A DNA stretch of 64,000 nucleotides from the NCBI GenBank assembly GCA_900319005.1, contig ONMV01000008.1, forward strand, positions 25,789 to 89,788. Direction: 5' to 3'. Made by a program: the position numbers and the translations under genes. Below are positions 630 to 50,003 of the stretch, one piece after another. Numbering within the stretch: the first letter of the stretch is position 1; each line of letters begins with the position of its first letter. Below the pieces are notes generated by a model. That model ran no database searches. It was not told the DNA's origin and was given only the letters and a program-made list of their open reading frames with translations. Source of the stretch: an uncultured Bacteroidales bacterium (lineage in GTDB: Bacteria > Bacteroidota > Bacteroidia > Bacteroidales > Paludibacteraceae).

Positions 630-648
630 CTATCAATTCTCAATTATC

Positions 649-697
649 AAGATTTTCGCTTGTCGAAAATAATCGTTCGAGCAAAGCGAGATAAGAA
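649..697 (+). repeat. 49-bp two-hairpin element, copy A
   Basis: Begins AAGATTTTCGCTTGTCGAAA and ends AAGCGAGATAAGAA. The first half folds into ATTTTCG-cttgt-CGAAAAT; the second half has a weaker TCGTT/AGCGA pairing. It is identical over all 49 bases to copies at 3244-3292 (same strand) and 19189-19237 (opposite strand). It is flanked by CAATTATCAA-type heptamer repeats (631-648 and 698-719). It sits between the nucleoside kinase and the SPOR gene. Confidence 0.9.
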
Positions 698-719
698 TTA
701 TCAATTATCAATTATCAAA
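698..719. repeat. Period-7 tandem repeat (unit like ATTATCA)
   Basis: Three units of a CAATTAT-like heptamer directly after the 49-bp element and just beyond the stop of the nucleoside kinase. Related but shorter heptamers lie on the other side of the element at 631-648. Confidence 0.8.
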
Positions 720-729
720 TCTCGTGCCA

Positions 730-2424
730 TTAGTACCTGAACGACGAACCACCGACGAACTCACGGAGGAAGGAAGTAGGCGGAATCTCACGCTCAGGGA
801 TGGGTACGAAATACTGCAGGAACTTCAACAACCGGTGGGCCTCCGTATATTCCTGACAGAACTTAGGCACCTCGGACAGGATCGGTTCAGCATGTCGTTT
901 GAGCACTGCGAACTCGAAGATCAGCGCCGAATTGAACATCACATCCGCTTCTTCTTGGAACGGATAGACCCATTTCTGCTCACCTCTAATGACAGAGGGG
1001 CAACGAGCAATCGTCTCTCGTGCCGAGAACCCACGATACTTATAATCGCGCACGATTCGGCGGAGCAGACGGATATCCGTAGTCGGGATCCAGTTATGGT
1101 TATCGATATTGATGGTGGTGAGGGTGGAGACATAAATCTTATAGGTCAGACTCTTATCCACATCCGGCAGAATGCAAGGATTCAAAGCATGCAGTCCCTC
1201 AATAACGAGCACGCTGTCTTTCTGCAGTTTGAGTTTATTCCCCTTGAAGACCCGCTCACCTTTGGTGAAGTCATAAGTTGGCAGATTGACCTCTTTACCC
1301 TCCATCAGGTCTTTCATCTGCTCACGGAAGAAAGGCAGATCCACTGCATTCACATTCTCAAAATCATATTCGCCGTTTTCATCCTTCGGTGTATCTACAC
1401 GATTGACGAAATAATCATCCATGGAGAGCACCTCGGGTTTGATACCATCTACCAACAGTTGTATCTGAAGACGTTTGGAGAAGGTAGTCTTACCGGATGA
1501 CGAAGCTCCCGAAATAAAGACGATCTTCGGACGTTTGGCAGCGATAGAATCCGCTATCTGGGCGATCTTCTTCTCATGCAGTGCCTCGGCTAACTTGATC
1601 AACTCGAATGATTTATTGAGTTTACAAGCTACATTAAAATCGCTCACATTATTGATTCTCAACAGTTTGTTCCATCGGTTATACTCTTGGAAGATAGAAA
1701 ACATCTTATCCTGCGACACCTCATCCTCGAGCACGGTAGGGTTCGCGCGGTTAGGAATACGGAGCAATAAACCATCCTTGAAGGGAACGACGTCATAGAC
1801 GTTGATATATCCCGAACTGGGCAGGAGAACATTCGTGTAATAGTCCACGAAATCACCCATCCTAAAATAGCGACAGTAAGGGTTTCCGAGTGCTTCGAAG
1901 ATAGACGACTCGTTATTATACCTCTCGGCGAACATCTTGATCACCATCTTGGTCTGTTTCTCCTCCTCTATGATTGGTCTGTTTTCCGCAATGATGACCT
2001 CCATCCTCTCCTTGATAGCCTTCACCATCTCGGGTGTCAGTACCGGCGGTTCTTTCTCCTCTCCGGGAGTGACCTCTTTGTTTTGATGCCATTGAAGAGT
2101 GCAATAATAGCCTTTACTGATGGGGTGCTCCACACGCAGGTCCATCTCCGGGAACAACTCATTCACTGCACAGGACAACACCATACCTAAAGTACGTACA
2201 TAAACTCGCATACCGGAGGGAGAAGAGGCATCCAGAAACTCTATATCTTTTGGTTTATAGAGCAGGAAATCGAGGTTCTCCACCTTGTAATTCACGTGTG
2301 CTGCTATGATCGGGTACTTTAACTCCAGCCCCAACAGGTCTTTGAGCTGAATTAGCGATATACCACGAGGGATCTCATGGTACGAACCGGTGTTCTTGCA
2401 AAATACAGTGATCTTTTCTTCCAT
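730..2424 (-). CDS. Nucleoside (uridine-type) kinase with N-terminal TGS-like region
   Basis: 564 residues. The N-terminal ~70 residues look like a TGS domain and the next ~150 resemble threonyl-tRNA synthetase second-domain sequence. The C-terminal half is a P-loop kinase of the phosphoribulokinase/uridine kinase family, with Walker A GASSSGKT at 306-313 and MDDYFVNR near 335. The expected activity is phosphorylation of a nucleoside (uridine or a relative) by NTP in the cytosol. This multidomain form is common in Bacteroidetes and Firmicutes and distinct from short E. coli Udk; the exact substrate cannot be read from sequence. kdsA lies 22 bases upstream, same strand, so they are probably co-transcribed. 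Confidence 0.88.
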   Translation of the reverse strand: MEEKITVFCKNTGSYHEIPRGISLIQLKDLLGLELKYPIIAAHVNYKVENLDFLLYKPKDIEFLDASSPSGMRVYVRTLGMVLSCAVNELFPEMDLRVEHPISKGYYCTLQWHQNKEVTPGEEKEPPVLTPEMVKAIKERMEVIIAENRPIIEEEKQTKMVIKMFAERYNNESSIFEALGNPYCRYFRMGDFVDYYTNVLLPSSGYINVYDVVPFKDGLLLRIPNRANPTVLEDEVSQDKMFSIFQEYNRWNKLLRINNVSDFNVACKLNKSFELIKLAEALHEKKIAQIADSIAAKRPKIVFISGASSSGKTTFSKRLQIQLLVDGIKPEVLSMDDYFVNRVDTPKDENGEYDFENVNAVDLPFFREQMKDLMEGKEVNLPTYDFTKGERVFKGNKLKLQKDSVLVIEGLHALNPCILPDVDKSLTYKIYVSTLTTINIDNHNWIPTTDIRLLRRIVRDYKYRGFSARETIARCPSVIRGEQKWVYPFQEEADVMFNSALIFEFAVLKRHAEPILSEVPKFCQEYTEAHRLLKFLQYFVPIPEREIPPTSFLREFVGGSSFRY

Positions 2425-2446
2425 GATGGTGTATTGTTTTAGTACT

Positions 2447-3229
2447 CTATGGATTGACTATTTCATTTAATTTTAACGCATTTTCGAGCAGCGCTCTCAT
2501 ATTTGCCAATTTGACTTGATTGGCAGAATCCGAAATGGCACGATCGGGATCGGGGTGTGTCTCTATGAAGAGTCCGTCTATACCCACTGCGATCGCAGCG
2601 CGCGTCAAAGCGGGAACCATCTCGCGATTTCCTCCGGTGATACCGGTTTGCGAAGAGGGCTGCTGGACGGAATGGGTAGCGTCAAAGATGACAGGACATC
2701 CGAAACGTCTCATCTCCACGAGTGAGCACATATCTACCACCAATCGTCCGTATCCGAAGGAAGAGCCTCTCTCTGTGAGCCAGATCTTACCTTCTTTAGC
2801 GGCTCGCGGTTGAACGAGTTCGATCTTCTCGACTGCTCCTTTCATATCCCACGGAGCCATGAACTGACCTTTCTTCACATTCACGATACGTCCCGTCTTT
2901 GCAGCTTCTTGTAAGAGGTCCGTCTGACGACTCAGAAAAGCCGGGATTTGCAGGACATCCGCTACCTCAGAGACGGGTACACATTGTGCTCTCTCGTGTA
3001 CATCGGTCAGGATGGGCAGACCGAACCGCGCTTTCACCTCCTCGAGGATTCGCAGACCCTCTTCCATCCCCACGCCTCGTTCCGATACAGAAGTACGGTT
3101 CGCTTTATCGAAAGAGGATTTGAAATAAAGTGTTATTCCAAGGTCGTAACAGAGACGGTTGAGCGTCTCGGCTGTTTGGAGCACCATTTCACGGCTCTCT
3201 ATAGCACAGGGTCCTGCAATCAGAAACAT
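2447..3229 (-). CDS. kdsA: 3-deoxy-8-phosphooctulonate synthase
   Basis: 260 residues from the ATG at 3229. KdsA condenses arabinose 5-phosphate with phosphoenolpyruvate to Kdo-8-phosphate for the LPS inner core. Family signatures: LIAGPCAIES at the start, FKSSFDKANRTS, ILTDVHE, LSRQTDLL, NVKKGQFMAPWD, TERGSSFGYG, FDATHSVQ and FIETHPDP. Length is close to the usual 270-280. Reading could begin at a TTG nine bases upstream, but that lies in a repeat-derived CAATTGATA tract, so the ATG is preferred. The asparagine in NVKKGQ, rather than the metal-binding cysteine of other members, suggests the metal-independent class; that is inference. Confidence 0.94.
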   Translation of the reverse strand: MFLIAGPCAIESREMVLQTAETLNRLCYDLGITLYFKSSFDKANRTSVSERGVGMEEGLRILEEVKARFGLPILTDVHERAQCVPVSEVADVLQIPAFLSRQTDLLQEAAKTGRIVNVKKGQFMAPWDMKGAVEKIELVQPRAAKEGKIWLTERGSSFGYGRLVVDMCSLVEMRRFGCPVIFDATHSVQQPSSQTGITGGNREMVPALTRAAIAVGIDGLFIETHPDPDRAISDSANQVKLANMRALLENALKLNEIVNP

Positions 3230-3243
3230 AACTATCAATTGTC

Positions 3244-3292
3244 AAGATTTTCGCTTGTCGAAAATAATCGTTCGAGCAAAGCGAGATAAGAA
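3244..3292 (+). repeat. 49-bp two-hairpin element, copy B
   Basis: Perfect copy of the element at 649-697, same orientation. It fills the gap between the kdsA start and the stop codon of the next minus-strand gene (3293). A CAATTGTCAA heptamer pair precedes it. Confidence 0.9.
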
Positions 3293-5306: not shown

Positions 5307-5335
5307 ACAATATGTATTTAAAATATTTTCACTTT

Positions 5336-5869
5336 TCACTTTTCAATTTCCTCAAACAATTCTTCGAGTGAATTGACGAAGATAGGCTTGTATGCCTCTT
5401 GTTCGGGAATGAAATGAAGGCTTCGCATGAGTTCGATCTGCTGTTTGAGGGGTTCATAGAAACCATTGTAGTTGAGTACGAAGGTTTTCTTATGATGTTC
5501 TCCCACGATCGCGGATGATACGACATCCATCATCTCGTCGAGCGTGCCGTAACTGCCCGGCAGACAAACGATGACGTCCGCTATATCTCGCATGGCTTGT
5601 TTGCGCTCGGACATAGAACGTACCCGATACAACTCGTCGCAGTTATCGGCTTTACGTCCACAGGAGATGATCCTCGGGGGAATGACTCCGATCACATACC
5701 CACCGGCTTTCTTTGCCGAATCACTGGTCCGTGACATCAGTCCGCCTGTAGCACCGCCGTAGATAAGCGTATGACCGTGATCACCAATCCACTTACCCAG
5801 CGCATCCCCCAACGCGAGGTACTCCTCAGGTATCGCATCCTTCGCGCTACAATAAACAGCTATTCTCAT
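5336..5869 (-). CDS. LOG-family nucleotide 5'-monophosphate phosphoribohydrolase (TIGR00730 type)
   Basis: 177 residues. Motifs GGATGGLM (38-45) and PGSYGTLDE (104-112) are the nucleotide-binding and catalytic signatures of the Lonely Guy/lysine decarboxylase-like family. The family hydrolyses the N-glycosidic bond of (modified) nucleoside monophosphates to a free base and ribose 5-phosphate. The usual second glycine of PGGxGTxxE is replaced by serine, a tolerated variant. In bacteria without cytokinins the role is probably nucleotide salvage or detoxification. It is the first gene of a likely three-gene minus-strand unit. Confidence 0.85.
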   Translation of the reverse strand: MRIAVYCSAKDAIPEEYLALGDALGKWIGDHGHTLIYGGATGGLMSRTSDSAKKAGGYVIGVIPPRIISCGRKADNCDELYRVRSMSERKQAMRDIADVIVCLPGSYGTLDEMMDVVSSAIVGEHHKKTFVLNYNGFYEPLKQQIELMRSLHFIPEQEAYKPIFVNSLEELFEEIEK

Positions 5870-8139: not shown

Positions 8140-9228
8140 TTAAAAATCTACTTTTTCACCTATTCTTGCGTCCAAAAGGCGGATATGATGTTTCTCGGCT
8201 ATCCGACGCGCATTCTGCTCAGGTTCCTGCCAAGGATGCATCGCCAAAGCGAATTTATCATGGTGAACCGTAAAGTACTGCTCTGCCTGCAAGTCAAGCA
8301 TAGCCTGCTCCAGACCTTCCGGCGTGGTGTGGATATATCGCCAGTTTTCGTTATACTGACCGTTTTCGAGGAAAGCGAGGTCGATGGTACCAAACCGCTC
8401 GCGGATTGCCTTAAAACGCTTGTCATAACCTCCGTCGCCGCCGATATAGACCTTGCGGTCACCGGATTCGACCATGAACGATGCCCAAAGGGTCTGGTTC
8501 CGTGTGCCCAACAACCGATTACTAAAATGCCGACTTGGCAAACAGGTAATTTTTAATTCTTCATTTTTAATTTTTAATGCTTCACTCTCCTTCCAATCCA
8601 TCTCTATAATCTGCTCGTCCGAGTAGCCCCAGTACCGCAAATAATCGGCTATTCCGAGAGGACAGATGACTTTTTTGACCTTCTTGCGGAGATCGCGGAG
8701 CGTAGCATAATCCATGTGGTCCCAATGCTCGTGCGTAACGATCAGCACATCGATCTCCGGCAGGTCTTCCGGGCGGTATATATCCGTTCCGGCAAAAGGC
8801 TTGAGCATCAGCGAAGCAGGAAACTCAGGTTTCAGAACCGGATCGACGAGAAAGAGCTTACCGCCGAGACTGAACAGGTACGAGGAATGTCCGAACCACA
8901 CCACCCAATCGCTATCTTTCGGCAGCGCCTTCAGATCCGTTTTAACCGCTTCAATGGGTTCCTGCGGGATTCGGATTGTATCTTTGTCCAACATGAAACG
9001 CTTGAGCATTTTGAACGTACGGTGTTTGGCGTCCGGACCGTTTGTATCGCCCGTAAACTGCGGCGTCGGTTCCTCGTTTTGGAACATGCCGTTGTAGTAA
9101 TGGGGAGAGCCTTGTATCTTCTCTTTTGAGACTTGCCGGTACACGCCAAAAGCCGGATGTGCCAACACACCTGCCACCACTCCTGCGATTAAAACGATTA
9201 TTCCGACAACAATCAATACTATCTTCAT
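8140..9228 (-). CDS. Membrane-anchored metallo-beta-lactamase-fold hydrolase (NAPE-PLD/UlaG-like)
   Basis: 362 residues from the ATG at 9228, which has AAGGA six bases upstream; an ATG at 9234 abuts this site, and the ATG at 9264 overlaps the -7 element, so both are less likely. One N-terminal membrane helix (IVLIVVGIIVLIAGVVAGVL) probably anchors the enzyme facing the periplasm. The fold signature is THEHWDHMD (HxHxDH), with GGDGGY and later VHHDKF supplying metal ligands. NAPE-PLD-type relatives cleave phospholipid-like phosphodiesters; the substrate here is unknown. Within the coding region, 8547-8580 is a period-7 repeat encoding ALKIKNEELKIT, probably a surface insertion. Confidence 0.82.
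   Translation of the reverse strand: MKIVLIVVGIIVLIAGVVAGVLAHPAFGVYRQVSKEKIQGSPHYYNGMFQNEEPTPQFTGDTNGPDAKHRTFKMLKRFMLDKDTIRIPQEPIEAVKTDLKALPKDSDWVVWFGHSSYLFSLGGKLFLVDPVLKPEFPASLMLKPFAGTDIYRPEDLPEIDVLIVTHEHWDHMDYATLRDLRKKVKKVICPLGIADYLRYWGYSDEQIIEMDWKESEALKIKNEELKITCLPSRHFSNRLLGTRNQTLWASFMVESGDRKVYIGGDGGYDKRFKAIRERFGTIDLAFLENGQYNENWRYIHTTPEGLEQAMLDLQAEQYFTVHHDKFALAMHPWQEPEQNARRIAEKHHIRLLDARIGEKVDF
8547..8580. repeat. Period-7 tandem repeat inside a coding region
   Basis: On the minus strand the units are AAAAATT/AAAAATG/AAGAATT-like. The tract keeps the frame of the hydrolase and encodes a lysine-rich stretch (ALKIKNEELKIT). Confidence 0.75.
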
Positions 9229-17209: not shown

Positions 17210-17444
17210 ATTCCGTTGGGAGAACACTCCGGGACAAGTTGTTTTTGAAGACCCGGTGCATCATATATCGGGCAAAATCAGTAAAAAATACCGCACGTGC
17301 TACAATCACAAGCGTATCAACGGGCTGAATTTCACCAGCGTACACGGTGAGCGAAGTACTCCGGCGAGTGTGGCAGAGTTGGATCAGCGTGCGAAATTCA
17401 AGACCGTGCGTCAAGCTGCGATTGAGCGCTCGATGGACCTTTAA
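17210..17444 (+). pseudogene. Truncated relative of the 13131-13613 protein
   Basis: The frame reads VVFEDPVHHISGKISKKYRT, later STPASVAELDQRAKFKTVRQ, and ends at TAA 17442-17444. Compare VIYQDPVQEIRGTLTK and the LRFK segment of the gene at 13131. No good start codon is next to the conserved part; the nearest in-frame ATG (17148) adds unrelated residues over the hairpin array. It may be 5'-truncated or use an unusual start. Confidence 0.55.
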
Positions 17445-17488
17445 GACGCAATAAATCGCTCCTTTTCTCAAAAAAAATCCCCGAGTGC

Positions 17489-17519
17489 TTGCATATATGC
17501 AAAATTTGTAGTAATTTTG
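17489..17519 (+). promoter_or_regulatory. Promoter for the OmpA-family gene
   Basis: TTGCATATATGCAA at 17489 (a 14-base palindrome covering the -33), 20-base spacer after TTG, TAATTTTG at 17512-17519. The ATG at 17542 follows after about 15-20 bases of leader. Confidence 0.8.
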
Positions 17520-17541
17520 TACCCGCAAAATTGATCAGTCT

Positions 17542-39775: not shown

Positions 39776-41242
39776 ATGGCAAAATCGGATTTTATTATTG
39801 AGGTGAACCATGTTTCGAAGCAGTTCGAAGATGGTAAGTATGCATTGGATGATGTTAACCTCCAAGTGAAAAAAGGTGAGTTCGTCACCATCTTAGGCCC
39901 TTCGGGCTGCGGCAAAACAACGTTGCTTCGTTGTATAGCCGGTTTTCAAGTCGCCAGTTCAGGCGAGATACTACTCAAAGGCGAGGATGTAACCAAGACT
40001 CCTCCGTACAAGCGTCCCGTGAACACCGTGTTCCAGAAGTACGCTCTGTTTCCCCATTTGAATGTATTCAACAACGTTGCTTTTGGTCTGAAGTTGAAGA
40101 AAGAGGACCCGGCGACGATTAAGAAGAAAGTGCGTCAGGCGCTCAAAATGGCGAACCTGACGGGCTACGAGGAGCGTAAAGTAGATACGCTCTCCGGTGG
40201 TCAGCAGCAACGTGTAGCGATAGCTCGCGCTATCGTGAACAAGCCGGAAGTGCTGTTATTAGATGAACCCTTGAGCGCTCTGGATTTGAAGATGCGGCAC
40301 GATATGCAGATCGAGTTGAAGGAGCTGCACGAACAATTGGGCATCACCTTTATTTACGTCACCCACGACCAAGAAGAGGCGTTGACGCTGAGCGACCGTG
40401 TGGTAGTAATGAGCGAAGGAAAGATTCAACAAATCGGTACTCCGACAGATATTTACAACGAGCCGCAGAACTGCTTTGTAGCCGATTTTATCGGTGAGAG
40501 CAATATCCTCTCCGGCACGATGATCAAAGATAAGAAAGTGCAGTTCTGCGGACAGGTGTTCGATTGTATCGACACCGGTTTCGGAGAGAACAACCCCGTG
40601 GACGTAGTCATTCGTCCGGAAGATATTTATGTTTGGCGCAAGGAAGATGAGAAACGCGGCAAAGTCGTTGCTAACGAAGAGGACGATGCCGAAGACCGCG
40701 TGCCCAAAGGCAAGTTCACGAAATGGTATGGCGTAGTGCAGAGTTGTATCTTCAAAGGCGTGCATTACGAGATGCGTGTCCTGACACCCGATAACTATGA
40801 GTTTCTCATTCAGGATTATCATGAGTACCTGCCGGGAACAGAGATCGGTATGCTCGTCAAACCCGAGGATATCCAGATTATGAAGAAAGAGCACTACCTC
40901 TACAATTATCTGGATGGCGAAGTTCTCAAGAACGGCAAAGTGCGTTTCTTAGGAGCCGAATGGGAGGTGAACGAAGAGCAAGTAGCCCGTTTCGCAGCCG
41001 GCGACAAAGTAGTTGTGCGCGTACCTTTCCGTTCTATCGATTTGCAGGACTACGAGGAAGAAGGAACACTGTCGGGCGAGGTGCATTTTATCCTCTTCAA
41101 GGGCAACCATTTCCACCTCACTATTCGTACCGACACGGGGTATGACTTCTTTGTGAACACGAATGATGTGTGGGACGACGGTGACCGCGTGGGTATCGTC
41201 ATACCGAAGAATGATATTTTGCTTTCAGCAGTTGAAAGTTGA
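39776..41242 (+). CDS. potA: Spermidine/putrescine ABC transporter, ATP-binding protein
   Basis: 488 residues, ~110 longer than E. coli PotA. Walker [10 protein letters not shown] (41-49), signature LSGGQQQR (~139-146), Walker [13 protein letters not shown], and H-loop VTHDQEEAL. Residues after ~240 hold TOBE-type regulatory folds ([16 protein letters not shown], then a second copy with [13 protein letters not shown]). A charged insert, [10 protein letters not shown], lies between. It energises polyamine import with the two permeases and the binding lipoprotein that follow. The ATG is close to its promoter (leader ~40 bases). Confidence 0.93.
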
Positions 41243-41258
41243 CAATTGAAAATTGAAA
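41229..41258. repeat. Period-7 repeat between potA and potB
   Basis: GTTGAAA/GTTGACA/ATTGAAA/ATTGAAA units; the first encode the last residues of PotA (AVES). Confidence 0.75.
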
Positions 41259-41261: not shown

Positions 41262-42059
41262 ATGAATAAGATTATTCAAATAGCCTCTTCGCGCCGCACA
41301 TGGGCTTGGCCTTATGTCGCTTTCATGGCGATGTTCGTCGTGCTGCCGCTGATCCTGGTGGGCGTCTATGCCTTCACGGATATACAAGGGCATTTCACGC
41401 TGCATAACTTCGCAAAGTTCTTTACACATAGCGAAGCTATCCAGACTTTTCTCTATTCGCTCATGATCGCGGTTTTCAATACCGTCATCTGTCTGCTGAT
41501 CGGATATCCGGCAGCATATATCATGGCGCAGGAAGATTTCAAGACGCCTAAAGTGATGGCGATGCTGTTCATCCTGCCGATGTGGATCAATTTTCTGCTG
41601 CGTACGGTAGCGACGGTGGAACTATTCAATATGTGCGGTTTGCCTTTGGGCGAAGGAGCACTGCTGTTCGGTTTGTGTTACGACTACCTGCCGTTCATGA
41701 TCTACCCCATCTATAACACCCTGCAGAAAATGGATAACTCGCTCGTCGAAGCAGCGCAGGACTTAGGTGCCAGCAGATGGCAGAGTTTCTGGAAAGTGAT
41801 TGTACCGCTCAGTATGCCAGGCGTGTATAGCGGCGTGGTGATGGTGTTTATGCCGACCGTCTCCACCTTTGCAATCGCGGAGCTGCTGACGCATAATAAT
41901 ATCAAGCTGTTCGGTAGCCTCATTCAGGATTATATCACCACCACGGATTTGTTGAACTATGGCGCGGTGTTGAGTCTGGTACTTTTGATTATCATCGGTC
42001 TGACGTCGTTCTTCGGCGAAAATGACAGTGAAGGCGAGAAAGGAGGGGGACTGGTATGA
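41262..42059 (+). CDS. potB: Polyamine ABC transporter permease PotB
   Basis: 265 residues, six predicted membrane helices. The EAA loop is VEAAQDLGASRWQSFWKVIV. The ATG at 41262 is chosen over an upstream TTG inside the TTGAAAA-type heptamer tract (41229-41258), which forms the whole 19-base gap to potA. The stop overlaps the potC start (ATGA, 42056-42059). Confidence 0.92.
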   Translation: MNKIIQIASSRRTWAWPYVAFMAMFVVLPLILVGVYAFTDIQGHFTLHNFAKFFTHSEAIQTFLYSLMIAVFNTVICLLIGYPAAYIMAQEDFKTPKVMAMLFILPMWINFLLRTVATVELFNMCGLPLGEGALLFGLCYDYLPFMIYPIYNTLQKMDNSLVEAAQDLGASRWQSFWKVIVPLSMPGVYSGVVMVFMPTVSTFAIAELLTHNNIKLFGSLIQDYITTTDLLNYGAVLSLVLLIIIGLTSFFGENDSEGEKGGGLV

Positions 42060-43411
42060 TAAGTGAAAGGTTAAAGGTGAAAGGACTAATCCTTCTACTC
42101 TTTTCAATTTTCAGTTTTCAATTTTCAATTTGCCAAGCGCAGTCGAATCTGACCTACGAACTGAAAGTAGGCACAGCAGAAGAGAACAAACTGCTAACGG
42201 ACTTCCCGGAGAGCTACGCAGGACAGAAAGTGAACATCACAATCCAGACCGTTCCGCTGACAGAGACGGACTTGGATTTCGTCTTCGCGGATGGGTATCA
42301 GCCAAGATTGGCTGATAGATACGATAGTATCTATAGTTATACAGACGCGGGGAATGTGAGATGGACCGTTTGGCGTAATAATAAACCCATTAAGAACCGC
42401 GCGCAGCGGGTGATGGTTGGCAATGCGTATAGTACGTTTGAGGCGTACCTGCATGAGCAAGTGGACGCACGCCGCAGCCAAGGATGGATTTGGTGGTTGT
42501 TGGCAGGGCTGGTGATCGCTGGAACCGCCATGTACGGCGGCTACGTGGTGTATTGCCGCCGAAAAGAGAAGAGCCTGTCGAGCGTGGAGCAGGAGATGCT
42601 GCGCCGCAAACGGATGGGTCTGCGCAGACATTATGTGTCGCAAGCGTACCTCTGGATCTTGCTCTTGGTGCTCTATGCCCCGATTGCCCTCATCGCCGTT
42701 TTCTCCTTCACGAAAAGCAAAGTGCTGGGTAACTGGACGGGCTTCTCGATGGACCTCTATGCAAACCTTTTCACAGGCAAAGCGGACGCGGGTTTGAACA
42801 GCGCGATGCTGTACACCCTCATCATCGCCCTCATCGCTGCCGTTTGTTCAACCATATTAGGTACCTTGGCAGCTATCGGTATTTACAACATGCGTGCAAG
42901 AAGCCGTAAGATGGTCAGTTTCCTGAACTCTGTGCCGATGATCAACCCCGATATCATTACAGGTATATCGCTCTTCCTGCTGTTTGTGGCGTTGGGAATG
43001 AGTCAGGGACTTACTACTGTCTGCATCGCCCATGTGGTGTTCTGTACGCCATATGTCGTGCTGAGCGTACTGCCGCGTTTGAGCCGGATGAACCCCAACA
43101 CCTACGAAGCAGCGCTGGACCTCGGCGCCACACCCGCACAAGCGCTCCGTATGGTGATGCTGCCCGAACTATGGCCGGGCATGCTCTCCGGATTCATCTT
43201 GGCGCTCACCCTCTCCGTCGATGATTTCGGCGTCACTTTCTTCACCAAAGGAAGCGGAGGATTAGAGACGCTCTCTACCTTTATTTATTCGGACGCGCGT
43301 AAGGGCGGTTTGACGCCGGAACTGCGACCCCTCTTCACGATCATCTTGCTGGTCATGTTGACCGTACTAATTTATATCAATATACGTAATTCAAAACAAG
43401 AAGAAAAATGA
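42056..43411 (+). CDS. potC: PotC permease with an added N-terminal periplasmic domain
   Basis: 451 residues; normal PotC is ~260. Residues 1-29 form a signal peptide (GLILLLFSIFSFQFSICQAQ) coded largely by heptamer repeats (42061-42132). Residues ~30-145 are a periplasmic beta-type domain (TETDLDFVFADGYQPRLADR, TVWRNNKPIKNRAQRV). A membrane helix follows (WIWWLLAGLVIAGTAMYGGY), then a basic linker, then the six-helix permease from ~200 with EAA loop YEAALDLGATPAQALRMVML. The extra domain could help dock the substrate-binding lipoprotein. ATGA couplings bind it to potB and potD. Confidence 0.9.
   Translation: MISERLKVKGLILLLFSIFSFQFSICQAQSNLTYELKVGTAEENKLLTDFPESYAGQKVNITIQTVPLTETDLDFVFADGYQPRLADRYDSIYSYTDAGNVRWTVWRNNKPIKNRAQRVMVGNAYSTFEAYLHEQVDARRSQGWIWWLLAGLVIAGTAMYGGYVVYCRRKEKSLSSVEQEMLRRKRMGLRRHYVSQAYLWILLLVLYAPIALIAVFSFTKSKVLGNWTGFSMDLYANLFTGKADAGLNSAMLYTLIIALIAAVCSTILGTLAAIGIYNMRARSRKMVSFLNSVPMINPDIITGISLFLLFVALGMSQGLTTVCIAHVVFCTPYVVLSVLPRLSRMNPNTYEAALDLGATPAQALRMVMLPELWPGMLSGFILALTLSVDDFGVTFFTKGSGGLETLSTFIYSDARKGGLTPELRPLFTIILLVMLTVLIYINIRNSKQEEK
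42061..42132. repeat. Period-7 repeats coding the PotC signal peptide
   Basis: Two tracts: GAAAGGT/TAAAGGT/GAAAGGA, then TTTTCAA/TTTTCAG/TTTTCAA/TTTTCAA. The second encodes FSIFSFQFSI of the signal peptide core. Confidence 0.85.
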
Positions 43412-44658
43412 AAAAGAACATTTCTTTGTACTTTGTACTTTGTACCTTTGTACTTTCCTTGGTTTCCTGCGGCGGTTCGGACCGTGCGCATCAACTCAAA
43501 GTGCTCAACTGGGCGGACTACATCAACGAGGACGTCAAAGAGAATTTCGAGCAGTGGTATTTTGAGCAGACAGGGGAGAAAGTGGAACTCGTTTATGAGA
43601 CGTTCGACATCAACGAGACCGCGTTGACCAAGATTGAAGTGGGACACGAGGACTACGACGTGTTCTGCCCGTCGGAGTATATCATCGAGCGTATGCTCAA
43701 GAAAGGTCTGATTCTGCCGATTCAGAAAGATCTGATTGCAGACTCAATCTATTATTTCGATAATATATCGCCGTTCGTAACCGCTAAGTTCCAACAGATG
43801 GCGCCTTCAGCCGACGTGACGGTAAGCGATTATACCGCAGGATACATGTGGGGCACAACCGGATTTATCTATAACCCGCAGTTCGTCAACCGCGAGGACC
43901 TGCAGAGCTGGGCTGCTGTTCTGGACCCGAAATTTGAAAACCGAATCCTCATGAAAGATGCGTTCCGCGATGTGTATTCGGTATTGGTTCTCTACGCCTA
44001 TGCAGATGCTATCGAGCGCGGCGAAGTGACGCGCGATGAACTCGTTCGCGACATCACTCCCGAGCGCGTAGCGGCTGTCAAAGAGGTGCTCCTCAATGCT
44101 AAAAAACAAATCTGCGGTTGGGAAGTGGACTTCGGAAAAGAGGAGATGACCAAAGGCAAAGCATGGCTCAACCTCTCCTGGTCCGGAGACGCTCAGTTCG
44201 CTATCGAAGAGGCAGCCGAAATGGGTGTCATGCTCGATTATATCGTACCGCAAGAAGGTTCGAATGTTTGGTTCGACGGATGGGTAATCCCGAAATATGC
44301 GAAGAACGTCAAAGCCGCTACCTATTTCATCGATTATATGTGCAAGGCGGAGAACGCTCTCGCTAACATGGACGAGATCGGTTATGTATCCTGCTGCGGC
44401 GGCGAGTTGGCAGCAGCTGAGATCCTCGAAGAGATGAATGACGACGAGGAATGGCCCGAGACCGTGGACGCTTCTTATTTCTTCGGCGACGCTCCCATTG
44501 AGGTAGAAGGAGAGATGCTGGACCCGCACGCCCTTCACCTCAATCCGGTTTATTATGCCGACAAGAGTATCATCGACCGCTGCGCCCTCATGCACGATGC
44601 AGGTGACAGCCAGGAGATGCTGCTGGAGATGTGGAATGAAATCAAATTAGCACGCTAA
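43408..44658 (+). CDS. potD: Polyamine-binding lipoprotein PotD
   Basis: 416 residues. The signal peptide has lipobox VLSLVSC (cysteine 21) and is coded by TTTGTAC heptamers (43421-43457). The solute-binding fold starts VLNWADYINEDVKENFEQ, with VYETFDINETALTKIE and WFDGWVIPKYAKN, typical of PotD/PotF. It delivers spermidine/putrescine-type ligands to PotBC. The ATGA overlap with potC (43408-43411) gives coupling. It is ~65 residues longer than E. coli PotD, mostly in an acidic stretch (ILEEMNDDEEWPETVD). Confidence 0.92.
   Translation: MKKNISLYFVLCTFVLSLVSCGGSDRAHQLKVLNWADYINEDVKENFEQWYFEQTGEKVELVYETFDINETALTKIEVGHEDYDVFCPSEYIIERMLKKGLILPIQKDLIADSIYYFDNISPFVTAKFQQMAPSADVTVSDYTAGYMWGTTGFIYNPQFVNREDLQSWAAVLDPKFENRILMKDAFRDVYSVLVLYAYADAIERGEVTRDELVRDITPERVAAVKEVLLNAKKQICGWEVDFGKEEMTKGKAWLNLSWSGDAQFAIEEAAEMGVMLDYIVPQEGSNVWFDGWVIPKYAKNVKAATYFIDYMCKAENALANMDEIGYVSCCGGELAAAEILEEMNDDEEWPETVDASYFFGDAPIEVEGEMLDPHALHLNPVYYADKSIIDRCALMHDAGDSQEMLLEMWNEIKLAR
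43421..43457. repeat. Period-7 repeat coding the PotD signal peptide
   Basis: TTTGTAC repeated four to five times, encoding LYFVLCTFVLS. Confidence 0.85.
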
Positions 44659-44669
44659 TGGACCGCTTC

Positions 44670-44767
44670 GCTAAAAGACAAAAGACCGTTTCACTAAAAG
44701 ACAAAAGACTTGTTACTATGGGCAGGTTCATTTTAGTCCTTTGTCTTTTGTCCTTTGTCCTTAGTCC
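44670..44767. repeat. Period-7 repeats at the start of the giant TPR gene
   Basis: AAAAGAC-type units at 44670-44712 and CTTTGTC/TTTTGTC/CTTTGTC units at 44734-44767. The second encodes LVLCLLSFVLS of the signal peptide. The first is nearly the complement of the second. Confidence 0.82.
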
Positions 44768-47657
44768 CGCCTTCGCTCAAACGAGCGAAATGGAGCAGCA
44801 ATACAATGCTCTCTCCGCGCGTTTCGACGGGCGGGATAAGTTGCTGCAGCGGGATCTGAAGGCGTACTTGGTCGCCTTCCCTTACACCACGTTTGCGGAC
44901 GAGGTGAATTTCATGCAGGGCGTTTTGCAGGTGGAGAAAGGTCATTACAAGCAGGGTCTGAAGATCCTCGAGCAAGTGGAAGCGAAGGCACTGACGAGAC
45001 CCCACCAGACGGACTATTCGTTCTATCGCGGATATGCCTATCTGATGCAACAGGAGTATCAGCGGGCATCGATCTATTTCGCCCAACTCGGTAAGTCCGA
45101 CAACCGCTATGCTACGCGCGGAACATATTACTACGCGTACTGCATGTACAAGATGGAGAAGTACGACAAAGCGCTGCCGGCTTTGCTCCAACTGGAGAAC
45201 GAACCCGCCTATGCCAAGACCGTTCCCTATTACCTCGTGCAGATTTATTATGCACAGGGTAACTACGAAGGGGTGGGTGAGCGTGCCGAAAAGCTGCTTC
45301 GCGACTATCCGGACAGCCCTAACAACGGAGAACTGCATCGTATCTTAGGTGAGATATATTTCCACAGAGGCGAGTACGCTTCGGCAGTGGAGCACCTGCG
45401 TACCTATCGTACTACCGCGAACGGGTTGAAAGAAGAGCTCCTACGCGGGGATATATACATGTTAGGAGCCGCGGAGTATCAGTTAGGCGAATACGCTGCC
45501 GCCGTACAATCACTCAAGCAGGTCAAGCAAGAGAAAGATACCATCTCCGAGGCAGCCTGCCTGACGATGGCGAACGCGTATGTGCAACTCGCTCAACCCG
45601 AGCAAGCCAAGCTGTTCTATCAAGCCGCAGCCAACTACGCCCTCACACCGGCCATCACCGAAGAGGCGGCATATAACTATGCCCTCTGTACTTATCAGAG
45701 TTCGAGCGCGTTAGGCGAATCGGTTACCGCCTTCAATGATTTTCTCAAGCAGTTTCCGGACTCCAAGCACGAGAGCCGCATCTATCAGTTGCTCTCCGAT
45801 GCGTTGATGCGCAGTAAGAACTACGCAGCGGCGATCGGGGTATTGGATTCGATTGACCATCCTACGCCTCAGATGCTGGAGACCAAGCAGTACTTGCGCT
45901 ATCAGTTAGGCGCAGACCATTTCCTGCAAGGCAAGATGCAGCAGGCGGTCAAATGGACGACGGAGGTGGTGAGCCATGCCACCGAGTCGGACCGCTATAC
46001 GACCGAAGCGTATTACCTACGCGCGGAGGCGAACTATCGTCTGCGTAACTACGAAAACTGCGAAGCGGACCTGAATACTTTCTTCGCACGCCCAGACGCC
46101 AAGCGTTCGGCGAACTACAGCATCGCCCGCTATCTGGACGGTTACTGCGCTTTCTCGCAATCCAAATACGACAAAGCGCGTGAGGCTTTCTCGCTCTATA
46201 TAGATGCGGCATTAGTCTCTGAACCGACGTATGCCGATGCGCTCAACCGTATCGGCGACTGCTATTTCAACAGCCGTCAGTTCTCCCAAGCGATTACTTA
46301 TTACTCGCAGGTGAGCAAGCTCCAGTCCGCCGGAACCGACTATGCACTCTTCCAACGCGGTCTCGCGTTGGGTCTGCAGCATAAGTACGGAGAGAAAATC
46401 AACGTGCTCAGCGAACTGGCTAAGCGATATCCTAAATCCGATTATGCGGATGATGGTGTGTATGAGACCGCACGGGCACAACTGCAACTGGACGACGAGA
46501 GAGGAGCTATTGCCACTTATGAGCAACTGCTCAACGCCTATCCCCATTCGCCGCTGGCGCGCAAGGCTTCGCTCGAACGCGCAATGATCTTCCGTAACCT
46601 GCATATGAACGACGATGCGATAGTCGCTTACCGCCGTACGATTGAGAAATATCCGGCTACGGAAGAGGCTTACACCGCCCTCGACGCACTGCAGGCACTC
46701 TATGTGGAGGCAGGACGCGTGGATGAATACATGGCGTACACAAAGAACCTTGCGAAGATCAATATGACCGTCACTACGCAGGAGGATTCGCTACTCTATG
46801 CCTCGGCAGAGATGCAGTATATGCAGGCGGATTATCAGAAAGCGACTGTCAGCCTCAGCAATTACCTCACGCAGTACTGCGCCGGAGGACGGTATTGCAC
46901 CTCGGCGCGTTATTACCTCGCGGACTCCTATTATCGCCTCGGCAAGAGCAGCGAAGCGCTGAATCACTATATCGTACTGGCGGAGATGAACGCTAACCCT
47001 TATCAGGAAGAGGCGGCTACGCGCGTAGCGGAGATCTGTTATGACAAGGCGGATTATAACTGCGCGTTGGAGGCTTTCTATCGAATGCACGCCTTGGCTT
47101 CCGGTAGCGAGAAGACTGCTGTCGCACGACTCGGTATCCTGCGCTGTTCGCAAGCCTTGGGGCGTCATCAGGCGGCTATTGACATAGCTAACCAGATCCT
47201 CAGCGACCAGCCTCTGAGCGAGGACATCAGGAGCGAAGCGCTCTACTGCCGCGCGAAAGCGTACATCGGTCTTGGTCAATGGAACCAGGCACAGCCGGAT
47301 CTCAAGACCCTTTCCAACGAGGTACGCACAGCGCAAGGCGCAGAGGCGAAATACCTGTTGGCGCTCAGTTATTACCAAGCGCAGCAGTTAGACGAAGCCG
47401 AAGCACAAATCATGCAGTTCACCCAGATGAATACGCAGCAGCAGTACTGGCTCGCGCGCGCACTCATTCTCCTGAGCGACATCTACCGCGACCGCGGAGA
47501 ACTGTTCCAGGCACGGCAGTACCTCTTAGTGCTCCAGCAGAACTACACCCGTACGAATGATGATATACAGACGCTCATCGTGGAGCGCATCGTCGTGCTC
47601 AACCAACTCGAACAACCTGTAGAAGAAAAGGAGGAGAGTTATGAAAATGAAGACTAA
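44718..47657 (+). CDS. Exported giant TPR protein
   Basis: 979 residues from MGRFILVLCLLSFVLSPAFA, a signal peptide. An ATG at 44658 would add 20 charged residues coded by heptamer repeats and is less likely. The mature protein is a continuous array of 20 or more tetratricopeptide repeats, e.g. YYYAYCMYKMEKYDKALPAL, EIYFHRGEYASAVEHL and YYLADSYYRLGKSSEALNHY. The C-terminal residues are acidic. Large TPR proteins followed by an outer-membrane barrel occur as a pair in Bacteroidales; the TPR protein probably acts in the periplasm on the barrel or its cargo. It follows potD at TAATG and overlaps the barrel gene by 17 bases. Confidence 0.88.
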   Translation: MGRFILVLCLLSFVLSPAFAQTSEMEQQYNALSARFDGRDKLLQRDLKAYLVAFPYTTFADEVNFMQGVLQVEKGHYKQGLKILEQVEAKALTRPHQTDYSFYRGYAYLMQQEYQRASIYFAQLGKSDNRYATRGTYYYAYCMYKMEKYDKALPALLQLENEPAYAKTVPYYLVQIYYAQGNYEGVGERAEKLLRDYPDSPNNGELHRILGEIYFHRGEYASAVEHLRTYRTTANGLKEELLRGDIYMLGAAEYQLGEYAAAVQSLKQVKQEKDTISEAACLTMANAYVQLAQPEQAKLFYQAAANYALTPAITEEAAYNYALCTYQSSSALGESVTAFNDFLKQFPDSKHESRIYQLLSDALMRSKNYAAAIGVLDSIDHPTPQMLETKQYLRYQLGADHFLQGKMQQAVKWTTEVVSHATESDRYTTEAYYLRAEANYRLRNYENCEADLNTFFARPDAKRSANYSIARYLDGYCAFSQSKYDKAREAFSLYIDAALVSEPTYADALNRIGDCYFNSRQFSQAITYYSQVSKLQSAGTDYALFQRGLALGLQHKYGEKINVLSELAKRYPKSDYADDGVYETARAQLQLDDERGAIATYEQLLNAYPHSPLARKASLERAMIFRNLHMNDDAIVAYRRTIEKYPATEEAYTALDALQALYVEAGRVDEYMAYTKNLAKINMTVTTQEDSLLYASAEMQYMQADYQKATVSLSNYLTQYCAGGRYCTSARYYLADSYYRLGKSSEALNHYIVLAEMNANPYQEEAATRVAEICYDKADYNCALEAFYRMHALASGSEKTAVARLGILRCSQALGRHQAAIDIANQILSDQPLSEDIRSEALYCRAKAYIGLGQWNQAQPDLKTLSNEVRTAQGAEAKYLLALSYYQAQQLDEAEAQIMQFTQMNTQQQYWLARALILLSDIYRDRGELFQARQYLLVLQQNYTRTNDDIQTLIVERIVVLNQLEQPVEEKEESYENED

Positions 47658-49392
47658 TTTCGATATAATGGTATATCGGTATATCGGTATATCGATGATG
47701 ATGCTCACTGCACTGTGCGTTAATGCACAGCAGGACTCCGCCCTCAACCGCTCCGTGACCGTAGAGCGCGATTTTCAGCCTGTCATTCAGGCGGCAGGCA
47801 AAGTGGCAACCAAACCTGCCGTCGTGGAAACGACTATCGAACCGGCGCCCGTGGAGTACTCCACTTATACGGTGCAGGTATCCCCGGAGGCAGCGATTAA
47901 TCCGATGCTCTCGCAGCCTACGCGGTTTGAACCCTCGAAGCCTTATAACGGATTTATCCGCGGGGCGCTCGGTCATCCGCTCACACGCCTCGATTTCGGG
48001 TACCATTTGGATGACGGCAAGAAATCGATCCTCGATGTGTTTGCCCATCATGACGGCGAGTGGTGCAGAGAGATGATGCTGAGCAAGACCAAGGTTGGGC
48101 TCAATTTCACGCATCCTTTCTCTACCTGCGATCTCTATTTCGGCGTCAACGGCGGAAATATCTATTACCACCGTTACGGCGACCTGTACGATCCGGCAAG
48201 ACCGAAAAACAACACAAGTCTATGGATGGCAGAGGTTTTCTTCGGTGTCAAGGCGAATGCCAAACAGGATGTGCAGTACATGGCGCAAACGGGCTATCAG
48301 ATCTTCGCAAAAGCGAATGCCGTCAGCGAGCATCAGCTCCGCACGAAAGCTTCCTTCGATTGGCATTCCGACGCGCATCATGTGGGAGCCAAGTTCTATA
48401 TGCAGAATAACTTCATGCAACTCAGCGGCGACCTCGCTAAGAATATCGACCCTTCGCTCTATAACAGCCGTCATAACTTCCGCATCGAGCCTTATTACGC
48501 GTATATAGGAAAGCGCGTGCAGGTACACGCGGGCGTGAACTTGGATATGAATATCGGCTGCGGGCGAAATAGTCTCTCCGGCACGGAGAACATCACTTTT
48601 GCTCCTTCGCCGCACGTCTATTTCGAGGCACAAGTGGCGAAACAATGGCTCACTATCTATGCGGACGTCACAGGGCGTCACGGATATGGTAACCTGCAGG
48701 AGTTCATGGAGAACAACCGCTATCGCAGGATCACGGATGGTATCATGGAGCATCATCCGGCGACCTACGTGCCGGTTGATGGCGAACTCGGTCTGCGCAT
48801 CCGGCCCTATCGGGATCTGTTTGTCGAGATTCACGGAGGCTACGCACGCATGAACGATGAAGAGGTATGGGTTTATAACAACGGCGAGTTTGATTTCTTC
48901 TACACCAATTATAACCGCGGCAAGATCGGCGCGCAACTGAATTACCATTACCGCGATTATGTACGCGTGAATATCGATGCCGATTATTTCCTCTGGAGCG
49001 GAGATACTACGGTGTACGATCGTCCGGATTGGCGTCTGGGCTTCCGTGTGGACGGCAGGATTGACAAACACTGGTCGCTCTATTCGGAGAACCGTTTTGA
49101 GGGTAGTCGCCGCGCACTGGCGTTTGATACAACAAACAACACCTATTCCCAATATACCCTCAAACCGCGCATCAACCTCAACCTTGGTGTGCAGTATGAG
49201 ATGTGGGTGGGTAGTAAAAGCGAGAGATTAAAGGTGAAAAGCGACGGAGGGCAAGTTTTGCGCCCGGAACCCAAACCGAACCTGACGCTCTTCTTGCAGC
49301 TGGAGAACTTCATCCATCGCAAGAACGAGATCTACTACGGTTTCCATAGCCATGGCATCAGTGCTCTTATCGGTGCATCCTATCGCTTCTAA
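47641..49392 (+). CDS. Outer-membrane beta-barrel protein (TonB-receptor-like)
   Basis: 583 residues. The signal peptide (GISMMMLTALCVNAQ) is coded in part by TATATCGG repeats (47670-47697); an ATG at 47668 is an alternative start. After a periplasmic segment (SVTVERDFQPVIQAAGKV) come strands alternating in aromatic residues up to the terminal ...SALIGASYRF, with a final phenylalanine as in outer-membrane barrels. There is no plug domain. The insert GSKSERLKVKSDGG near the C-terminus is another repeat-coded tract (49217-49245). Partner of the TPR protein. A terminator follows. Confidence 0.85.
   Translation: MKMKTNFDIMVYRYIGISMMMLTALCVNAQQDSALNRSVTVERDFQPVIQAAGKVATKPAVVETTIEPAPVEYSTYTVQVSPEAAINPMLSQPTRFEPSKPYNGFIRGALGHPLTRLDFGYHLDDGKKSILDVFAHHDGEWCREMMLSKTKVGLNFTHPFSTCDLYFGVNGGNIYYHRYGDLYDPARPKNNTSLWMAEVFFGVKANAKQDVQYMAQTGYQIFAKANAVSEHQLRTKASFDWHSDAHHVGAKFYMQNNFMQLSGDLAKNIDPSLYNSRHNFRIEPYYAYIGKRVQVHAGVNLDMNIGCGRNSLSGTENITFAPSPHVYFEAQVAKQWLTIYADVTGRHGYGNLQEFMENNRYRRITDGIMEHHPATYVPVDGELGLRIRPYRDLFVEIHGGYARMNDEEVWVYNNGEFDFFYTNYNRGKIGAQLNYHYRDYVRVNIDADYFLWSGDTTVYDRPDWRLGFRVDGRIDKHWSLYSENRFEGSRRALAFDTTNNTYSQYTLKPRINLNLGVQYEMWVGSKSERLKVKSDGGQVLRPEPKPNLTLFLQLENFIHRKNEIYYGFHSHGISALIGASYRF
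47670..47697. repeat. Period-8 repeat in the barrel signal peptide
   Basis: GTATATCG repeated three times and then degraded; it encodes VYRYIGIS. Confidence 0.8.
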
Positions 49393-49410
49393 AAGACACC
49401 ACCGAATGAT

Positions 49411-49449
49411 AATAGCCTGCAAGTTCATCACCTGCAGGCTATTGTTTTA
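49411..49449 (+). terminator. Terminator of the pot-TPR-barrel run
   Basis: Stem AATAGCCTGCA/TGCAGGCTATT (11 pairs) followed by GTTTTAT, 18 bases after the stop codon of the barrel gene. Confidence 0.85.
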
Positions 49450-49469
49450 TCCACTAATCCTCTAATCCA

Positions 49470-49958
49470 TTAAGCCTCAGAGCGTTTGCGGCGGAGATAG
49501 AGGTAGCCGCAGAACGCGAGGGACATCATCAGCAACGGCAGTACCGCATCGCCGAGGGGAGTGTTACCATCATCTTTCTCATCATCCGGATCATCCGAAT
49601 CATCCGGATCATCCGGGTTATTGATATTCGACCCTGCTCTTCGGATACTTCCCGGATGTCTTGAACCTATCCCGTATGCTGCGCTATTCACGGTTCCATC
49701 GCTATTGAGCGTAAATTGCTCTCCGGTACTAAACTGGCCGGAATAAGCACTCGTGGATTGGAAACCCGCCATCGGAGCAGTAGCCGTCGTGGCTACTTTA
49801 TACTCCACGTGCTGACACGGTTGCTCGTATCTCACTCCTTTGTACGTGCTCTTATAATCCACGGCTTGCGCCTGCACGGCGCTAAGCAGCGCCGGCAGGA
49901 AAGCCAGGATCATCACTAATTTTGTATTACGCATGATAGTTTTCATAATGCTTTTCAT
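49470..49958 (-). CDS. Small exported protein with C-terminal membrane/RRKR tail
   Basis: 162 residues. Translation probably starts at MKSIMKTIMRNTKLV (ATG 49958, AAAGG upstream); a 12-base repeat AAAAGCATTATG supplies several ATGs. The signal peptide ends near LLSAVQAQA. The middle has an acidic Asp-Pro linker (NNPDDPDDSDDPDDEKDD), then NTPLGDAVLPLL followed by a membrane helix and LRRKRSEA. The tripartite motif-helix-basic tail resembles sortase- or rhombosortase-type sorting tails and the PxDGG tails of Bacteroidetes. It lies 4 bases downstream of the giant surface gene on the same strand. Function unknown. Confidence 0.7.
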   Translation of the reverse strand: MKSIMKTIMRNTKLVMILAFLPALLSAVQAQAVDYKSTYKGVRYEQPCQHVEYKVATTATAPMAGFQSTSAYSGQFSTGEQFTLNSDGTVNSAAYGIGSRHPGSIRRAGSNINNPDDPDDSDDPDDEKDDGNTPLGDAVLPLLMMSLAFCGYLYLRRKRSEA

Positions 49959-49972
49959 AATGCTTTTCCTTT

Positions 49973-50003
49973 CTCTAAACTCTAAACATTCAACACTCAA
50001 TCA
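49973..50003. repeat. Period-7 repeat between the giant and small surface genes
   Basis: CTCTAAA/CTCTAAA/CATTCAA/CACTCAA units. A second repeat of 12 bases (CATAATGCTTTT) lies directly beside it and includes the start codons of the small gene. Confidence 0.75.

Follow-up and report, generated by a model that had tools for sequence, protein, structure and literature searches.

Heptamer repeat tracts with a restricted, species-weighted vocabulary and changing occupancy at orthologous sites in a rumen Paludibacteraceae group

We analyzed tandem repeat tracts of period 7 in a 64,000-nucleotide stretch of the draft genome of an uncultured Bacteroidales bacterium of the family Paludibacteraceae (assembly GCA_900319005.1; the whole stretch, G000:C14:25789-89788, is called the window). 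The period-7 excess is concentrated in this rumen Paludibacteraceae group, the repeated heptamers form a restricted and species-weighted vocabulary, and at orthologous sites a tract may be present in one species, missing from another, or made of a different heptamer. We read these data, with a probability of about 0.5, as a lineage-limited turnover in which tracts change by slippage in 7-base steps, are seeded from words of existing tracts, and are tolerated where they are harmless.

The host draft genome comprises 2.18 Mb (2,183,908 bases) and is 85% complete; we scanned 41 of its stretches, the window included, or 726,758 bases (33% of the genome). Relatives were drawn from 80 glnS-matched loci, mainly from rumen or gut Paludibacteraceae/Bacteroidales assemblies, of which 57 were near (glnS identity of at least 85%) and 23 far (77% or less). 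All cross-species comparisons are between distinct species, each represented by one assembly. An exact run was defined as a self-match of at least 10 bases at lag k, and dinucleotide shuffles (20 for the window, 5 per stretch for the genome scan) served as background. A mismatch-tolerant lag-7 scan of the host stretches gave the 119 approximate tracts on which most tract statistics are based. Gene positions came from a purpose-made crude caller (593 genes, 83% coding), and starts near tracts are uncertain.

The window held 8 exact lag-7 runs, whereas the shuffles gave a mean of 0.0 and a maximum of 0; lags 6, 8 and 9 gave one run each and lag 11 gave 3. When mismatches were tolerated, 14 lag-7 tracts were found at a score of at least 11 and 16 at a score of at least 8, together with 5 lag-8 tracts at the latter score, including those at 20729-20769 and 47664-47694 and one that overlaps the lag-7 tract at 43424. 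An earlier note on this DNA had counted about twenty tracts, a fair figure once 7-mers and 8-mers are pooled. Tandem Repeats Finder returned 51 rows at a score of at least 30 in the window, and 7 was the commonest period. Across the host stretches, 81 exact runs occurred at lag 7 and none (0.0) in shuffles, compared with 10, 22 and 12 at lags 6, 8 and 9; the mismatch-tolerant counts at the same three lags were 11, 45 and 12. The excess that the note had proposed to look for on the genome scale was therefore found, and the lack of it, named there as the result that would speak against the proposal, did not occur. Lags 11 and 15 were likewise raised among the exact host runs (35 and 32 runs). 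The approximate tracts at lags 14 (80) and 15 (36) are probably the same signal seen as 7+7 and 7+8, and those at lag 11 (33) form a smaller excess separate from period 7. Lag 11 was the second strongest period overall, with 50 exact runs in the near and 9 in the far loci; window examples beside this observation lie at 61144-61185 and 61246-61271.

The near loci contained 125 exact lag-7 runs in 1,050,904 bases, and only 3, 11 and 15 runs at lags 6, 8 and 9. The far loci contained 6 lag-7 runs in 403,948 bases. Other families of the order gave 4 runs in 20 stretches (237,928 bases), all of them within 2 stretches. An AATTGNN-type pattern, AATTGNNAATTGNNAATTG, was present in 45 of 81 genomes, that is, in 36 of the 49 genomes of the genus (the host included, 122 matches) versus 9 of the 32 of other genera, and besides the host it was abundant in G018, G021, G050 and G057; its reversed control also matched in some genomes, probably because the control is itself heptamer-like. 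Ten congeners lacking the pattern nevertheless had 16 lag-7 runs in 321,050 bases, distributed very unevenly (6 in G001, 5 in G024, 3 in G009, 1 each in G020 and G064). Tract density thus varies among species of one genus, and elsewhere in the order tracts are sporadic. Identical tracts conserved across genera, which the note had said would point to ordinary sequence, were not seen, and tracts were rare in the other genera sampled. An assembly artefact is an unlikely source of the tracts, because they agree across separate assemblies, such as those of the window and of its closest relative, L107.

The units were diverse, with an average of 34% G+C, but fewer than expected. The 81 exact host tracts fell into 31 unit classes and the 119 approximate tracts into 48 main unit classes, whereas 119 heptamers drawn from the tracts' own flanks gave 112 classes (minimum 106 in 200 draws) and those drawn from GC-matched spacers gave 95 (minimum 85 in 200 draws). 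The 161 near tracts gave 82 classes against about 149 expected from flanks, a count lowered by the inclusion of orthologous tracts. Overall, 105 of the 1172 possible heptamer classes were in use. With homologous-flank pairs excluded, a unit was shared by 13.4% of 261 same-species tract pairs but by only 5.4% of 12,357 different-species pairs, and none of 2000 permutations gave a species effect as high; without locus L159 the values were 10.6% within and 5.4% between species. Homologous-flank pairs across species had a unit in common in 21% of 246 cases. L159 carries at 18670-18970 a 300-base tract in which blocks of several heptamer types are repeated about three times, a higher-order structure. 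A motif common to all units was considered and rejected, since TGA/TCA was only mildly enriched in the units (0.48 versus 0.29); GCA/TGC was depleted (0.03 versus 0.13).

Strings longer than one unit also recurred. In the host genome, 53 of 7021 tract pairs shared an identical string of at least 24 bases, 47 of them irregular, compared with 2 of 7021 in a nearby control. A 34-base string is common to two unrelated sites, window 27576 and L010:3396, and a 33-base string of the tract at 8547 is found again in a different called coding sequence at L007:12201. A 30-base string of the tract at 43424 recurs at L048:9456, where, by our own reading, it stands in another frame; because one DNA word is read in different frames, ordinary coding repetition was rejected as the source of the tracts. 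The word of the lpxA insert of L117 has an exact copy at another site of the same genome; matches with at most one mismatch number 15 in all (2 of them at the lpxA site), whereas its reversed control had none. The claim of the note that only the period is shared is therefore half wrong: there are many units, but units and longer strings recur.

The junction between lpxC and lpxA shows how such tracts are distributed among species. It was readable in 47 of 58 sequences (10 had no match and 1 was too short), one of which, the bare L163, is not on the tree. The remaining 46 comprised 24 bare junctions and 22 with an insert of at least 12 bases between stop and start; several bare junctions are the stop/start overlap TAATG and others are 1-5 bases longer. 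The two states require at least 12 changes on the tree, 10 of them forced by the starred branches, compared with an average of 15.7 changes for shuffled labels, which were as low in 19-21 of 500 shuffles. Two inserts (L121 and L155) were not clearly heptameric and three (L107, L123 and L158) only loosely so. Sister species differed in state (L116 bare and L117 with an insert; L112/L113; L141/L154), and two pairs, L108/L109 and L132/L176, differed by exactly 7 bases. By our own reading, lpxA takes its in-frame ATG from the tract in L117, L113, L146 and L137. Elsewhere in the genome of L117, an AATGACC tract (L200, G081:C22:18240-18470) holds the likely start of a tsaD-like gene, named by eye. 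Among 19 outgroup loci (L201-L219), 7 junctions were found, with no heptamer tract by eye and no TAATG overlap, so they do not polarize gain and loss at lpxA.

A second fixed site is the loop of AroB that follows GHTFGHALE, which was located in 27 of 81 sequences, many other loci ending before aroB. Its units vary by species (AAATGGT-, GGGTTAC-, TCAGTAT-, CAATTCT/A-, CAATTCA-, TCAGAAG-, TCGTACA- and TCGTCAA-like), at least 8 different heptamers by eye. The loop was non-repetitive in L121, L131, L135, L155 and L163, and only partly covered in L119 and L128. In L116, a palindrome of a C-run and a G-run, CCCCCCCTGGAGGGGGG, stands in place of heptamers. A more novel reading, which we consider unlikely, is a trans-acting process whose template or preferred word would differ between species and which would write heptamer arrays into the stop/start junctions and protein loops of this genus. 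Under it, species-specific repeat DNA would time and again replace the sequence of start codons, signal peptides and enzyme loops.

Turnover was then counted over 168 tracts, 111 of which had at least one comparison, in 1583 tract-by-species comparisons with reciprocal ones counted; the class without period 7 includes some short tracts below threshold. Where flank identity was at least 85% (n = 100), the main unit was kept in 44 cases, a minor unit was shared in 5, a tract without a shared unit was present in 4, a similar length without period 7 in 14, and a shorter or empty site in 33. At 75-85% identity (n = 995) the corresponding numbers were 49, 12, 141, 291 and 502, so that 141 of the 202 comparisons with tracts in both species showed no common unit; below 75% (n = 488) they were 17, 11, 78, 179 and 203. 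A tract was found at the orthologous position in 15.2% of 991 cases versus 0.3% of 5981 positions shifted by 400-600 bases, a difference partly due to spacer preference because the controls were unmatched for spacer content. Homologous tracts with a common main unit differed in length in 20 cases, 14 of them by a multiple of 7, and were equally long in 17 further pairs.

The note had suggested comparing tracts between close strains, and among close relatives, here species rather than strains, the tracts do vary. L107 has 83-90% DNA identity with the window in two shared blocks. It preserves the repeats of aroB and those at 24885 with few changes, is one unit shorter at 19236, has different repeats and hairpins at 23694, and has a different insert, 30 bases shorter, at 27576. 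A further explanation of such variety is exchange between species, in which recombination imports gene starts together with other tracts and the differences at a site are foreign alleles. Some words do occur in more than one species at sites without obvious orthology, but tracts change while flanks remain at least 85% identical, and unit sharing is higher within than between species. This explanation seems to us highly improbable.

In the reading that we favor, whole 7-base units would be gained and lost through slipped-strand replication or repair, which may be the cause of the 7-base steps. New arrays would be seeded mainly by words copied from tracts elsewhere in the genome, through template switching or through ectopic repair synthesis at short shared words; as new arrays would copy words from the same genome, each species would have its own vocabulary. 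Arrays would last where an extra 20-70 bases are harmless, such as stop-start gaps, 5' leaders, signal peptides, N-termini and protein loops, and an array that lasts could come to provide a gene with a new signal peptide, loop or start codon. The data hint, weakly, at the copying between tracts; we infer that template switching is the seeding step and that tolerance rather than function keeps the arrays.

Another reading is purely local slippage: the replicative polymerase would tend to duplicate 7 bases, in line with the polymerase footprint idea of Mrazek (2007), and tracts would grow from native sequence and then be shaped by drift and selection. This is close to the local 7-bp duplication that the note had suggested, of which the 7-base steps and a lineage rich in tracts stand, whereas the making of a tract from sequence on the site does not, because 48 classes were found against 112 from flanks and 95 from spacers. 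The dominance of period 7 and the length steps of 7 are as local slippage expects. If it arose by gain, so is the difference between L117 and L116, whose flanks are 97% identical and of which one has an 11-base seed and the other a 53-base tract. But the units differ from the flanking heptamers, the vocabularies are species-weighted, different words occupy one aroB site, and, judged by eye, nothing at the bare junction of the sister species L116 corresponds to the lpxA insert of L117 (AATCACC..), while the word of this insert is present elsewhere in L117's own genome. Because of the vocabulary, purely local slippage fails, and we hold it to be doubtful as the whole explanation.

Several results weigh against turnover by slippage and copying as well. 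Markov chains trained on the tracts themselves reproduced much of the string sharing: an order-7 chain gave a mean of 25.9 pairs with irregular strings of at least 24 bases (maximum 36 in 10 runs) versus 38 seen, 64.6 versus 51 at 20 bases or more, and 10.3 versus 13 at 28 or more, and an order-8 chain gave 35.6 pairs at 24 or more. A shared unit vocabulary alone may thus account for much of it, and the copying of whole words is suggested by these sequences, short of proof. Gain and loss are indistinguishable site by site; the 42-base difference between L116 and L117 could equally well reflect a deletion, given that L120 and L152 also have a tract, apparently in the same gene. Finally, five of the ten congeners without the AATTGNN pattern (G005, G011, G013, G044 and G049) had no lag-7 run in the 14-40 kb scanned of each, and in the ten pooled, lag 11 (20 runs) was ahead of lag 7 (16), so slippage alone fails to account for these uneven congeners.

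With respect to genes, 43 of the 119 host tracts lay within 40 nt upstream of a called start, compared with 3.7 expected from random placement; 27 lay farther upstream (12.2 expected), 5 were downstream only (2.2 expected), and 44 were within coding sequences according to the crude caller (101 expected). Some tracts counted as upstream, among them those at 43424 and 44733, are more likely part of a signal-peptide coding sequence. The strong clustering just upstream of starts and the species-weighted units would suit regulatory elements, sites that a nucleic-acid-binding protein recognizes in order to control translation or transcription, with a vocabulary that drifts along with the protein. 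However, 42 tracts had a start no more than 60 nt away (those overlapping a called start not counted), and of these 19 were purine-rich on the mRNA strand, 20 pyrimidine-rich and 3 tied; purine content was used for this test as the units differ. Tract-to-start distances were spread over 1-53 nt, 44 tracts lie inside coding sequences, and 24 of 46 species do without an insert at lpxA. The lack of strand preference and the patchiness weaken a regulatory role, which we regard as quite unlikely.

A dispersed hairpin element sits inside or beside some of the tracts. It consists of TTCTTW, a variable short hairpin and ACGATTAT, and its closing pairs vary (G-C, A-T or T-A). In the window it occurs at 19189-19235 (+), adjoining the 19236 tract; at 650-697 (-), as TTCTTATCTCG..CGATTATTTTCGACAAGCGAAAATC, between the two tracts of 633-718; and at 3245-3292 (-), upstream of the 3-deoxy-8-phosphooctulonate synthase open reading frame (ORF) at 2447-3238(-). 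The host genome has 8 near-full copies, the query included, and a motif search gave 14 copies in 861 kb of host loci, some of which overlap, 16 in near loci (2-3 of which look like chance) and 1 in far loci (which looks like chance). The element was also seen in L119, L121, L138 (glnS N-terminus), L141 (aroB loop) and L147:2440-2500, and by our own reading it occurs in coding sequence in different frames. The note had argued against a dispersed element; most tracts indeed lack one, but those at 633-718 and 19236-19258 flank this hairpin. Rickettsia palindromic elements are longer palindromes inserted in frame in protein genes; they resemble the present repeats in this in-frame insertion and are closer to the hairpin element than to the heptamer tracts. 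A second apparent dispersed family, at window 17404-17525, was dropped as promoter-like; we take it to resemble a Bacteroidales-type promoter. An Rfam scan of the window returned a single tRNA only.

The hairpin is possibly a mobile palindromic element, and the tracts could be its edges, carried along when it moves, perhaps by transposases (Y1 family) associated with repetitive extragenic palindromic (REP) sequences. Several copies are bordered by heptamers, and a 39-base hairpin-bearing piece inside a tract of L147 is missing from L129 at 97% identity. Two host ORFs with weak Y1_Tnp matches and an HUH-like motif by eye, L195:575-1591 (C30) and L196:656-1717 (C34), are possible REP-associated transposases that might move the element. 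But the tracts have no common core, in three draft genomes (G002, G004 and G015) the AATTGNN pattern is present and a Y1 match was not found, and across 16 draft genomes the presence of Y1_Tnp showed no clear correlation with AATTGNN density (rho 0.29, p 0.28). RVT_1 had no match in the 85% complete host genome, and the idea of a reverse transcriptase was dropped. Moreover, the 14 copies found in 861 kb make the hairpin element far too rare to account for 119 tracts in 727 kb, and we judge a mobile origin to be very unlikely. Hairpins were also rejected as a general partner of tracts, as their enrichment at spacers is too weak: a stem of at least 6 was found within 50 bases of 21 of 75 spacer tracts (28%) versus 302 of 1500 controls (20%). 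A stem of at least 7 at 6 of 44 coding tracts versus 26 of 880 controls is a lead only.

Within the window, the tracts occupy spacers, gene ends and coding sequence alike. On the reverse strand, the spacer at 633-718, directly upstream of the ORF at 183-629(-), consists of a tract at 696-718 (TTGATAA three times), the hairpin and a tract at 633-650; a GTGAAAA tract at 5326-5349 spans the 3' end of a TIGR00730-family gene; and an AATTTTT/TTCATTT tract at 8547-8578 lies within a beta-lactamase-fold coding sequence. Further reverse-strand tracts are found between phoH and the next gene (23694-23711), inside an HSDR_N-like ORF (24885-24916, AATTGAG/AATTGAC, the same or nearly so in L107, L116 and L120), from the lpxC stop to the lpxA start (27576-27622, AATTAAA/AATTACG), and upstream of the ORF at 49470-49958(-) (49973-50000, GTTTAGA). 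Across the start of glnS, where the note had placed a period-7 repeat, an array is present (26797-26843, reverse strand), but it is a degenerate 15/12-base array and not a clean 7-mer. Near sufC, which itself was not scanned, the sole tract found was a degenerate lag-8 tract at 38725-38748 inside the sufD ORF, and the repeat reported at 30065 fell below every threshold used, though an 18-base indel relative to L107 falls there.

On the forward strand, an AATTGAN tract at 19236-19258 ends at the ATG at 19259, and aroB contains both a GGAGTGA-like lag-8 tract (20729-20769) and the AAATGGT tract of the loop GHTFGHALE-X-LHGYAV (21349-21383). A tract at 41230-41258 runs across the stop of a potA-like gene, 3 nt before a potB-like ATG. 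A GTGAAAG tract (42057-42084) lies in the first codons of a permease gene, and a TTTTCAA tract (42101-42131) codes for a hydrophobic N-terminal segment of the same permease. A CTTTGTA tract at 43424-43456 lies in what is probably the signal peptide of a solute-binding lipoprotein (at 43408 the tract translates as the signal peptide ATGAAAAAGAACATTTCTTTGTACTTTGTAC..), and a CTTTGTC tract at 44733-44767 in that of a tetratricopeptide repeat protein; a 23-base repeat at 44661-44709, present twice, contains ACAAAAG words. The lag-8 tract at 47664-47694, GGTATATC, lies in the N-terminus of the ORF at 47641-49392.

Short tandemly repeated repetitive (STRR) sequences of cyanobacteria are dispersed heptanucleotide tandem repeats with few fixed units. 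The present tracts are alike in being dispersed heptanucleotide repeats, but instead of one or few fixed units they have 48 classes in 119 tracts. Nor do they have a conserved core in every copy, as REP/RAYT-type (REP-associated tyrosine transposase) elements do; here a core is found in the hairpin subset only.

Calothrix heptanucleotides are mentioned in PMC4692102. A heptamer excess among long bacterial simple sequence repeats is known (Mrazek et al. 2007, via PMC4679880 and PMC4692102), and slippage was proposed for it, 7 nt being the polymerase contact length. The present tracts agree with this 5-11 nt class in their heptamer excess, in runs longer than chance (81 versus 0.0 at lag 7), in the heptanucleotide as the commonest unit length (next is lag 11, with 35 runs) and in length variation by whole units between relatives (14 of 20). 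They differ in that related species are compared site by site, with different words at one site, and in a species-weighted vocabulary, degenerate arrays, and locations at gene starts and within enzymes. TAACTGA repeats occur in marine Beggiatoaceae, cyanobacteria and a few Bacteroidetes (MacGregor 2015, PMC4679880). In one genome most copies fall within several bases of a start codon, on its upstream side; control of translation or transcription by a nucleic-acid-binding protein was proposed, and in two Bacteroidetes the spacers of the nearest relatives are shorter and show no obvious repeats. Heptamer direct repeats just upstream of starts (43 of 119 tracts) and repeat-free shorter spacers in relatives are common to both systems. 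There, however, one heptamer dominates and its near variants are rarely repeated, whereas here TAACTGA is the main unit of 0 of 119 host and 0 of 161 near tracts, there is no preference for the forward orientation relative to the start, and many tracts are in coding sequence.

The GGGNATC repeats of Xanthomonas and Nostoc (Rehm et al. 2015, PMC4692102) likewise vary in length and sequence between close relatives, but they are of a single G-rich unit type with G-quadruplex potential and a four-unit preference, unlike the diverse, A+T-rich units found here. Borg tandem repeats (PMC9879509) share with the present tracts a site-specific unit, fast turnover among close relatives, and locations in spacers and ORFs; the examples described are 18-36 nt, A-enriched and give perfect amino-acid repeats in ORFs, whereas these tracts are 7-8 nt, degenerate and on a bacterial chromosome. 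Heptamer-derived arrays are also among the abundant bacterial satellites, with one heptamer per species in the Chloroflexus example (PMC6749651). A 2015 paper called detailed literature on heptamer repeats missing (PMC4692102). The heptamer excess, heptamers upstream of starts and fast-changing, site-specific repeats in spacers and ORFs are therefore already known from these systems, and among the open-access papers listed by our searches none dealt with the repeats of this genus or with unit replacement at fixed sites.

The cause of heptamer dominance in long bacterial repeats has been debated since 2007. This lineage offers dozens of sequenced species with occupied and bare sites and with differing tract density, so that gene content, unit choice and turnover can be compared. 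In these bacteria, repeat DNA apparently serves as start codons, as signal peptides and as loops in conserved enzymes, which would be a concrete route to new protein N-termini.

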